Virus record (IMG/VR): IMGVR_UViG_3300030104_003651
Location: 1 to 25,318 of that record
DNA: 25,318 nucleotides
Source: a virus
Strand: one strand, 5' to 3'
Of this stretch, positions 4,786 to 11,094 are shown one piece after another (positions within the stretch are counted from its first letter, which is position 1; every line of letters begins with the position of its first letter). The notes below the pieces were generated by a model. That model worked only from the letters and a program-made list of their open reading frames with translations. It did no database searches and was not told where the DNA came from. The position numbers were made by a program, and so were the translations under genes.

Positions 4786-5664
4786 TTACTTGAATCTGCT
4801 GTTGGTGAAGTTAGCATAACTGAACTCTTCACGGTTGACAAGTTTGATGGCACCATTTAGTGTCCAGTATACAAAACCCTCACCCACAGTTGGGTCACCA
4901 TTGGGCAGGAAAGTTTGAAAGTCAGAGTAAACAATCATGTCCTCAATCATCTCTTGCTTACGCTCAATGACCCACAAATACAGGTTGGCAAGATAATTAC
5001 AACGCAAAATAGTTGTAAGGATCTCGTCATCAAGTTTGTAACCAGATGCGACCAGTTGATTGATTGCTTGCTTGGCACGATTTGCCTGCTTTGGTGTCAG
5101 GAACTGAACCCTGCTAGTGTCAATCTCTGGCAGATCTTCATCACGATGGATACGATCAACCGAAGGCATTACGAACTTAACATGAACAGTATCATCAAAA
5201 GATTCACGCAATGGCAGAGGAGTAGCATCACAAAGATCACCGTCAACGTAATACTTTGTATGAGGTGCGATGACAAGTTTCTGCTCAATCTTCTCGGGGA
5301 AGATATAAGTCAAAGTGTTGTTGGTAAATTCACTCTGACGACCGAAACCAATAAAGTCACCCTGATACACACCTTCCGTGCGTGGAAGATACTTAAGCAT
5401 CAAATACAGCAGGTCAGCAACATCTTCCTGATGTCCAAAATGCTGGTGGATGTCTTCAACGGTGTAACAGAGGCGAATCTTTTTCTTGTTGAATGCTGCC
5501 TTGGTACATACAAAGAATTTGCCCTGATAAGTGCCCCAAACAATAGCAGGAGCACCATCAATCTTCAGACCGATGTGAAATGCTGACCCATAAAGGTCAT
5601 CAAAAATAGAAAGATCACCCGTAAGGATAGTATCTTCGGGGTGTTCGAGATGAGTGTTTGCCAT
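4786..5664 (-). CDS. DUF6267-like nucleotidyltransferase/ligase-fold protein
   Basis: 292-aa protein with the signature of covalent nucleotidyltransferases (DNA/RNA ligase superfamily). Motif I is KIDG at residues 34-37, within LKIDGAPAIVWG; an EGVYQGDF segment lies near the middle; motif IV is EGFV at 262-265; and motif V lysine is K274 (IKLVN). The N terminus THLEHPED and the TKAAFNKK segment match my memory of a phage family of unknown function, DUF6267. No separate OB-fold domain is apparent. The ATG directly follows the TATAGT of element copy 7, and the family-like N terminus supports it. It may seal nicked RNA or DNA, but the substrate is unknown. Confidence 0.75.
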   Translation of the reverse strand: MANTHLEHPEDTILTGDLSIFDDLYGSAFHIGLKIDGAPAIVWGTYQGKFFVCTKAAFNKKKIRLCYTVEDIHQHFGHQEDVADLLYLMLKYLPRTEGVYQGDFIGFGRQSEFTNNTLTYIFPEKIEQKLVIAPHTKYYVDGDLCDATPLPLRESFDDTVHVKFVMPSVDRIHRDEDLPEIDTSRVQFLTPKQANRAKQAINQLVASGYKLDDEILTTILRCNYLANLYLWVIERKQEMIEDMIVYSDFQTFLPNGDPTVGEGFVYWTLNGAIKLVNREEFSYANFTNSRFK

Positions 5665-9440: not shown

Positions 9441-10121
9441 TCAATTAGCAGCAGCAAGTTGTTTCTGTGGTGGTTTATTCTTATTAGGTGTGTTTGCTGT
9501 CACCTTTTGATTATTCTTGGAGGGTGATAATGCCTTTTGAGAACCACTACCAGTTACTTTCTTTTTATCACCTGAACCAATATAACCTGCCCTCTTTGGT
9601 CCGAGTACAGTAACTCTAACTGGTTTAATTCCTGATTGTGTGGCAGGTTTAGATTCTGGTCTCTTCGTTATTGATGAAGAACCAGGTTTTAATGCCTTAC
9701 GTTGTGGTGTTCCTGCTAGTTTCTTTTTAATATCACCACGTTGTGCTGTTCCTAGCATAGGACGTGATTTAACAGCAGTTTTAGCAGCAGTTTTAGCAGC
9801 AGTTTTTGCTGCTGTTTTAATAACATCAGAGGTTGTCTTTTTAGTCTTCGCTAATGCTCCACCCTTTTCAGGTTTAGGTGTTGCTTCTTTATTCTTCATT
9901 CTATATGGTGCTGGTTTGCGTTTCTGTTCAGAACCTGCTGTATTCTTACCAGCATTCTTGATACTTTGAACCGCACCTTTAGCAGCACCTTTCAAGGCAG
10001 AACCTAAACCAGTTCTAGGTCTTTTCTTAAATGATTTATATGAACCACCTTCGGTGCCTGATGTAGAATAATCAGCAACACCTTGTGGACCCTCTGTAAT
10101 AAACTCTTGAAAAGATTTCAT
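9441..10121 (-). CDS. Basic low-complexity protein with T4-like capsid-targeting N terminus
   Basis: 226-aa, very Lys/Ala/Gly/Pro-rich and probably disordered. It begins MKSFQEFITEGPQG, close to the T4 internal-protein capsid-targeting sequence (MKTYQEFIAE type). Its I-T-E at residues 8-10 fits the (L/I)xE cleavage preference of the T4 gp21 prohead protease. The middle has four tandem KTAA-type units (12-bp DNA repeats at 9771-9818), and the rest has many PK, KR and KP pairs suited to binding DNA. The ATG overlaps the stop of the preceding, similar gene as ATGA. I infer a virion-packaged, DNA-associated protein. Function not established. Confidence 0.72.
   Translation of the reverse strand: MKSFQEFITEGPQGVADYSTSGTEGGSYKSFKKRPRTGLGSALKGAAKGAVQSIKNAGKNTAGSEQKRKPAPYRMKNKEATPKPEKGGALAKTKKTTSDVIKTAAKTAAKTAAKTAVKSRPMLGTAQRGDIKKKLAGTPQRKALKPGSSSITKRPESKPATQSGIKPVRVTVLGPKRAGYIGSGDKKKVTGSGSQKALSPSKNNQKVTANTPNKNKPPQKQLAAAN
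9771..9818. repeat. Four tandem 12-bp repeats encoding KTAA units
   Basis: Four consecutive 12-bp units (agcagcagtttt type on the plus strand; the last has synonymous tgctgctg) encode the repeated Lys-Thr-Ala-Ala stretch of the basic protein. The units are nearly identical and likely arose by slippage. Confidence 0.8.
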
Positions 10122-10873
10122 GTTGACATCCTCTTGTGGACTCTACCCATGATCTTGGTTCTACCCTTGGCATCAGGATTTGTGCCTGTTTCTTTCTTAT
10201 ACTTGGCAGTTTCTTGGTCTTTCATGATACCACGCAGCATTGTTTCGCCTTTACGTTGCTGCTTCATTCTTTCCTGACGAGTCATACCAGATGCCTTTGC
10301 TGGTTTATAATCAGGAGAGACAGATTTAGTCTCTTTCTTTTTCAGGAGTTTAGATGCTTCTTTACTAGCATCTTTTGTAGATGTGGCAGGTTTCTTCGCA
10401 TCACCACCACCTTTTTTGGCGGCAATTCTTGCCTGTGCTGCTTTCTTCCTCTCTGCTTTCACTTTATCAGCATAGGATTGTTTTACCTCTGCTGACCCTC
10501 TTTCTTTTGTTGGTTGTTGTTCACGTTCAGATCTTGCTTTGGTAGTACCAACATCCTTTCTAGTCTTATATTCACCCACAGGGGCAGATTTGCCACCACC
10601 TGTTGCCTTGACCCTAGGTTTTACACCTGGTCGTCTTCTTGAACCAGTATCTCTTTTAGGTTCTTTTCTACCATCAGCACCGGTCTGTTTGATTTGAGAT
10701 CTACCTTGGACTTCAGGATCATACGCCTCCATGTTAGTGGTGGTATGCTGATGTGCCATCTTACGCTGTTTTGCTTTCTGTCTTCTCTGACGATATTCAG
10801 CGTTCTTATTTGCTTGGTTGAGAGGATTATCTTGGGGATCAATATCCTCCATGAATTGTTGAAATGTCTTCAT
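10118..10873 (-). CDS. Basic virion-type protein with MKTFQQFMED N terminus
   Basis: 251-aa, highly basic (long stretches such as RRQKAKQRKMAHQ and AERKKAAQARIAAKKGGG). It matches my memory of a cyanomyovirus protein family with the segments YKTRKDVGTTKARSEREQQP, RIAAKKG, SKLLKKK and SPDYKPAKASGMTR. The N terminus resembles the T4 capsid-targeting peptide, but the expected cleavage tripeptide reads M-E-D rather than (L/I)xE, so processing is less certain than for its neighbour. Gene order and style suggest a packaged head protein. It overlaps both neighbours by ATGA. Confidence 0.78.
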   Translation of the reverse strand: MKTFQQFMEDIDPQDNPLNQANKNAEYRQRRQKAKQRKMAHQHTTTNMEAYDPEVQGRSQIKQTGADGRKEPKRDTGSRRRPGVKPRVKATGGGKSAPVGEYKTRKDVGTTKARSEREQQPTKERGSAEVKQSYADKVKAERKKAAQARIAAKKGGGDAKKPATSTKDASKEASKLLKKKETKSVSPDYKPAKASGMTRQERMKQQRKGETMLRGIMKDQETAKYKKETGTNPDAKGRTKIMGRVHKRMST

Positions 10874-11058
10874 GATTGTACGACGGAAGCACCATCAAAT
10901 CCACCATTTTTGCCATCGGTATTTACAAGCATAGCATCTGCTTTTGCTTTGGTAGAATAACTAACCCTACCCACTGATTCATCAGACCAACGATTTCCAC
11001 CATGATAGTACATGGTACGTCCGTCTAATTTGCCGGGTCTTGTAATATGATACGCCAT
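10870..11058 (-). CDS. Small conserved cyanophage protein, 62 aa
   Basis: The ATG at 11056-11058 starts 2 nt after a perfect 12-bp inverted repeat. The sequence MAYHITRPGKLDGRTMYYHG followed by NRWSDESVGRVSYSTKAKAD has the layout of small repeat-like domains common in cyanophage genomes (YY.G.NRW....R..Y.TKA.A), apparently a single beta-rich unit. Function unknown. It is coupled by ATGA to the basic protein gene downstream. Confidence 0.78.
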   Translation of the reverse strand: MAYHITRPGKLDGRTMYYHGGNRWSDESVGRVSYSTKAKADAMLVNTDGKNGGFDGASVVQS

Positions 11059-11060
11059 AA

Positions 11061-11094
11061 CAGGAAGACTAATATATTTTATTTAGTCTTCCTG
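11061..11094 (-). promoter_or_regulatory. Perfect 12-bp inverted repeat with late-promoter-like core
   Basis: CAGGAAGACTAA and its exact complement flank a 10-nt AT-only loop. On the minus strand CTAAATAA (11079-11086) in the loop and stem edge resembles the T4 late promoter core TATAAATA, 20 nt before the ATG at 11058. The palindrome ends 2 nt before that ATG, so an RNA carrying it would have a hairpin next to the start codon. It could be a terminator (no T-tract), an operator or a translational control site. Confidence 0.6.

Follow-up and report, generated by a model that had tools for sequence, protein, structure and literature searches.

Genes P1 and P2 lie side by side at 9441-10873 of the virus record IMGVR_UViG_3300030104_003651 (positions 1 to 25,318, all of which was analysed and is called the window here), and each starts with a leader resembling the capsid-targeting sequence (CTS) of phage T4. 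The window belongs to a T4-like cyanomyovirus; at the tail-fibre end its nearest relative is Synechococcus phage Bellamy. The P1 and P2 proteins are very probably late-made internal head proteins, addressed by their CTS to the prohead core like T4 internal proteins (IPs) IPI-III. MKxFxxF(I/L/M)xE is probably also a modular code for encapsidation, used generally by T4-like phages with cyanobacterial and other environmental hosts. It would make their payload readable from the genome and would occur in at least two forms: a cleavable one, and one that only targets and keeps its long leader, of which P2 of the window would be an example. The relevant features are as follows (aa, amino acids; pI, isoelectric point; ORF, open reading frame):

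9441..10121, minus strand: P1, 226 aa, pI 10.8, leader MKSFQEFITE followed by GPQGVADYSTSG (ORF list; eight related IMG/VR loci)
10092..10121, minus strand: capsid-targeting-type leader of P1, residues 1-10 (MKSFQEFITE), with a predicted cut by the prohead protease gp21 after Glu10
10118..10873, minus strand: P2, 251 aa, pI 10.4, starting MKTFQQFMED IDPQ (ORF list)
10853..10873, minus strand: targeting half of the P2 leader, residues 1-7 (MKTFQQF)
10730..10852, minus strand: P2 residues 8-48, where the cut site is lost (M8, E9, D10) and the long leader has its additional stretch (alignment to the short-leader relative L170)
10727..10729, minus strand: P2 Glu49, the conserved junction Glu ahead of AYDPEV
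10124..10279, minus strand: predicted C-terminal helical hairpin of P2, residues 199-250 (AlphaFold2)

Packaging into the head, as proposed in a preliminary description of this DNA, is supported by comparative evidence and by virion mass spectrometry of leader-bearing proteins from other cyanophages. In S-CREM2, all five leader-bearing ORFs were detected in the virion, compared to 52 of 219 ORFs overall (P=6e-4; PMC10665884, Table 3):

S-CREM2 ORF6: SAM hydrolase, MKDFDSFLEE, in virion
S-CREM2 ORF13: MKDLHSFLTE, in virion
S-CREM2 ORF14: kinase, (V)KRFDAFLTE, in virion
S-CREM2 ORF136: lysine-rich, MQTFSMFFSE, in virion
S-CREM2 ORF154: cytidylyltransferase, MKNFSSFLTE, in virion

S-SM1 has a single strong leader gene, GC190 (MKKFSAFLNE), whose product is in the virion (PMC3037559), and S-SCSM1 has two, including an NMNAT (MKSFLQFLKE) flagged as a virion protein. 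T4 and cyanophage genomes served to fix the original motif before the proteome tables were opened, and with it 5/6 leader proteins of the three cyanophages are in the virion (P=0.0015). Widening the motif (Q/N at position 2, GTG/TTG starts), which was done after the S-CREM2 N-termini were known, gives 7/8 (P=1e-4). Counting by family gives 5/6 (P=0.004), and GC190 orthologs occur in all three phages. Because most tagged proteins of these phages are in the particle, the tag may reveal cargo from the genome. A sixth S-CREM2 virion protein, the Cas9-like ORF12 (OR473000 7704-10313 minus, L453), has RFASFMAE near its N-terminus, followed by a region like the N-terminal part of cytidylyltransferase GC190 (AMKAERLGLVSDGHGSYMDP).

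In T4, residues 4 and 7 of the CTS govern targeting and residues 8 and 10 govern processing, and an Asp10 mutant that blocks processing still allows targeting (PMC9026906). By analogy, the hydrophobic residues 4 and 7 of the P1 and P2 leaders would bind the gp22 scaffold core, and gp21 would cut P1 after ITE10 to release a 216-aa polycation. P2, having kept the targeting half and lost the cut site, would be packaged with its leader attached. Both proteins are most likely associated with the packaged DNA and would exit with it at infection.

P1 relatives were found at eight IMG/VR loci, and tblastn of P1 against isolate phages returned chance matches only. F4 and F7 are invariant across five aligned P1 proteins, and residues 8-10 of the relatives are ITE, LSE or LLE (FITE in L155, FLSE in L235, FLLE in L236 and L237, with GPQG next in each). 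In another relative (L240) the form is FSED, and FNED stands in an S-B05 protein whose likeness to P1 was judged by eye. The same hydrophobic positions are conserved in the P2 family, which bears out the preliminary assignment of both leaders to the T4 capsid-targeting type. The (L/I)xE rule of gp21, invoked at the outset for the MKSFQEFITE start, holds for P1, where ITE10 is followed by Gly and is the only [LI]xE in 226 residues, but not for P2 (M8, E9, D10). P1 is joined to the P2 C-terminus in several loci (L178, L181, L182, L184/L238, L199, L216 and the 5'-cut L180). The P1 part of these fusions has no leader of its own, which indicates one leader per polypeptide. We rejected the idea that a gp21 site always marks the joint, since only one contig has it (YITE/YQDP, the slash marking the site; seen as L184 and L238) and the other fusions have MSE.

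Both proteins are as basic as first described, with the top pI values among 46 minus-strand ORFs examined and lysine plus arginine contents of 22% (P1) and 26% (P2). Disorder, also described earlier, is supported for P1 (AlphaFold2 mean pLDDT 52) and for most of P2 (62), but a helical hairpin is confidently predicted for P2 residues 199-250. A fold search with the P2 model gave one confident match (220 aa, 53% identical), taken to be the S-B05 homolog of P2 and uninformative on function. Searches of the P1 and P2 families in Pfam and PHROGs gave no match, and thus no catalytic ADP-ribosyltransferase (ART) domain was detected. Between injected early effectors, as first proposed, and head-internal proteins that condense or protect DNA the choice is nearly even; the basic, low-complexity sequences fit DNA-bound head proteins equally well. 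P1 and P2 could be packaged and yet act inside the particle, as DNA-condensing or core-filling proteins, and we rate this only slightly below an even chance. Their polycationic, low-complexity nature without an enzyme domain agrees with such a role, as do the presence of the lysine-rich ORF136 in the S-CREM2 virion and the effect of T4 IPIII on head assembly (PMC9026906). However, P1 is patchy (8 loci compared to about 140 for P2), more like an accessory factor, and the T4 internal proteins of known role counter host defences.

P2 relatives were found in 142 IMG/VR stretches, of which the best 80 were examined, and in isolates P-TIM68, SynMITS9220M01, S-SM2 and S-B05. In annotated isolates P2 lies a few genes upstream of a helicase gene. 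Nearly all relatives begin MK(T/S/N)(F/L)xxF, keeping F/L4 and F7, in a collection slightly biased toward the leader because one of six search patterns included it. All 30 distinct short leaders (9-13 residues) have a junction Glu with I/L/M/V/F two residues before it, and short-leader relatives, unlike P2 of the window, have hydrophobic-x-Glu at residues 8-10. Where residues 8-10 are not a site, one lies two or three residues later (QEKLTE/VYD, MQITE/AYD, MILAE/ASYD), restoring LTE, ITE, LAE or LCE. The 12 distinct long leaders (49-115 residues, window type included) retain the targeting residues. Their position 8 is N/Q/S/M/V, their position 10 is D/E/S/Y/Q, and position P3 at the old junction is never I, L, M or F. 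P2 of the window has F4, F7, M8, E9 and D10, with 39 extra residues between the targeting half and the old junction compared to L170. No cleavage is expected at residue 10, because M8 and D10 are changed and 39 residues are inserted. Given the retained F4 and F7 and the T4 Asp10 result, P2 is predicted to be packaged uncut at residue 10. On its sequence, it would work like a targeting-only CTS, and we do not class it as a processed IP.

Alternatively, both proteins lose their leaders by cleavage, P2 at Glu49 or Glu9, and P2 is an ordinary processed internal protein. We consider this unlikely, although Glu49 is conserved ahead of AYD and the T4 IPI propeptide has 19 residues. P2 contains no [LI]xE anywhere, and in T4 processing is blocked by Asp10. 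The long leaders as a group have no I/L/M/F at P3, and their extensions avoid [LI]xE (0 compared to 6.9 expected). The mature parts of P2 likewise hold no [LI]xE compared to 29.8 expected (38 non-redundant proteins; fraction 0.0005), the expectation coming from permuted alignment columns, which preserves relatedness. [LI]xD, [LI]xK, [LI]xQ, Ex[LI] and [LI]xxE are not significantly depleted in these parts; [LI]E is depleted. S-SM1 ORFs overall show no [LI]xE depletion (ratio 1.16). Such avoidance should be the expected look of a flexible protein beside gp21. As a general test for leader cargo it fails for phrog_1742 and GC190, so it was applied to P2 only.

Across T4, the window and six cyanophage genomes (ORFs of at least 60 codons, a few stretches unscanned), a loose form of the leader stands at 13 of 2,751 first ATGs and none of 9,291 internal ATGs, and the T4 matches are exactly ipII and ipIII. 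A strict DNA pattern matched once in 257 Gb of bacterial and archaeal genomes and at least 120 times in IMG/VR. The sole bacterial match (L281:1557-1808) is an 83-aa ORF (MKRFKEFISEGSYPFW) in the metagenome-assembled genome of an alphaproteobacterium; it has a recombinase-like gene close by and may be phage-derived. A use other than packaging, such as translation start, folding, or chaperone or protease recognition, would suit a short leader at the very start of genes, but it is highly improbable. The leader is conserved as protein, because its synonymous codons vary; the hydrophobic-x-Glu junction with its shifted sites, the enrichment in virions and the loss of the leader in P2-P1 fusions also argue against it. 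Chance resemblance of two short N-termini, conceivable for a short motif in phages rich in small genes, is refuted by conservation across both families, by the internal ATGs and by the DNA pattern MK(S/T)FQ(E/Q)F, which occurs twice in the window, at the two N-termini noted originally (MKTFQQFMED, MKSFQEFITE), and in none of 100 dinucleotide-preserving shuffles.

Three leader scans yielded 296 distinct proteins, all starting shortly after an upstream stop codon, in roughly 85 BLAST cargo families (an approximate count, since several families are merged in the largest cluster and short sequences are possibly split). Cargoes above the Pfam cut-off are NUDIX, DPBB, glucosaminidase, ADP-ribosyltransferase exoenzyme, adenylate kinase-like, methyltransferase, cytidylyltransferase, DUF6267 and DUF6321, and others include nucleotidyltransferase/NMNAT, SAM hydrolase, kinase, peptidoglycan hydrolase-like and polycationic proteins. 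T4-core genes of the S-SM1 type stand alongside the leader in 100/120 and 89/119 loci of two MKxF scans. On this sequence evidence, T4-like phages use the leader as a module and place it on many unrelated cargoes. Leaders are gained and lost, because a DUF6267 protein in L319 (5457-6701) has one (MKTFKSFLLE/AEAV) and that of the window (4786-5664 minus), starting MANTHLEHPED, has none. The commonest leader protein of scan A (L009-L128) is the 102-106 aa family phrog_1742 (MKSFKQFISESVNI), and gp17-gp23 head genes are also on many scan-A loci. ART-like cargoes are above the Pfam cut-off in L354, below it in L374 and L094, and recognised by eye only in L338 and L124. Leader-like segments also occur within long proteins (MKNFTSFMEA, LSFQDFQEKAMKCWKGY and YTFEDFMEAKALDP in L257:2322 of P-TIM68, L153:1536-3023, which is S-SM1 GC119, and L210). 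Their counterparts elsewhere are N-terminal leaders, and these proteins are possibly polyproteins of leader-cargo units.

Several observations weigh against CTS-directed packaging of P1, P2 and their counterparts. Because the window covers only part of a genome, gp21 and gp22 of this phage are not visible; gp21 and an ILTE/T-type site in gp23 were seen in the relative S-SM1 only. Virion proteomics was found neither for the window phage nor for a homolog of P1 or P2, and S-SCSM1 ORF30 (phrog_1742) carries the leader and is unflagged as detected. phrog_1742 and GC190, which are leader cargoes and presumably folded, show no [LI]xE depletion. The junction Glu is kept in long P2 leaders though P3 is no longer I/L/M/F, and this Glu may have another reason.

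The gene order and upstream signals bear on when P1 and P2 are made. On the minus strand, a 62-aa gene (phrog_24339), P2 and P1 follow one another with ATGA overlaps at both joints, which makes the P2 and P1 start codons credible. Upstream features are:

10870..11058, minus strand: 62-aa gene (phrog_24339), upstream of P2 and overlapping it by ATGA (ORF list and PHROG match)
11080..11086, minus strand: CTAAATA, late-promoter-like, 21 nucleotides before the 62-aa gene and inside an inverted repeat (11062-11093)

The late promoter is given as NATAAATA (PMC2984593), and motifs similar to CTAAATA stand 17-27 nucleotides ahead of five tail-side genes in the window. TAAATA is not enriched (15 in total compared to 17.4 expected), and only strand and position are suggestive; these signals are therefore only supportive of a late timing of P1 and P2. 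All 15 hexamers are on the coding (minus) strand, a bias that may reflect late promoters or strand composition.

Cyanophage virions hold non-structural proteins (NMNAT-like enzymes, SAM hydrolase, kinases), and the accessible parts of the papers describing them do not state how these are loaded. A search made mostly outside the subscription literature found no report that describes the leader in cyanophages or connects it with their virion proteomes. If our interpretation is correct, a ten-residue tag would allow the payload of very abundant marine viruses to be read from their sequences and would help to find proteins for early anti-defence or takeover. The leaders would also be tags of natural origin for loading cargo into T4-like heads. 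In the P2 form, nature would offer a test of the older T4 mutant finding that targeting can be separated from processing.

Among known systems, T4 IPI-III share with P1 and P2 the N-terminal MK(T/S)(F/Y)xxF leader and a small basic cargo that is hypervariable behind it, and share with P1 the I-x-E at residues 8-10. They differ in that P1 and P2 are from a cyanophage, with cargo for which the searches showed no relation to T4 IPs (tblastn of P2 returned only marine cyanophage-type records), that the P2 leader is long with changed processing residues, and that two leader genes share one operon, fused into a single ORF in some phages. T4 gp61.1 (54 aa, NC_000866.4:18966-19130 minus, L150) has a CTS-like start, MKTFKEFIKE, and a lysine-rich tail, and is not among the internal proteins listed in the review consulted. 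T4 Alt is packaged and cut by gp21 (PMC9026906), and ART-like proteins are among the leader cargoes of relatives, whereas no enzyme domain is detectable in P1 or P2. Non-structural proteins of cyanophage virions (NMNAT/cytidylyltransferase, SAM hydrolase, kinase; PMC10665884, PMC9602691, PMC3037559) carry the leader, but they are enzymes rather than polycations, and the leader is unmentioned in the accessible parts of their papers. Processed head and ejection proteins of phiKZ and SPN3US also lose propeptides after Glu to a gp21-like protease, but the cleavage motif is S/A-x-E (phiKZ) and the accessible descriptions give no common ten-residue leader. Head-packaged ARTs and Nudix proteins have been inferred from fusions and gene neighbourhoods (PMC9503650), and the T4 CTS has been suggested to load diverse proteins in T4-like phages (PMC9026906, PMC3012670).
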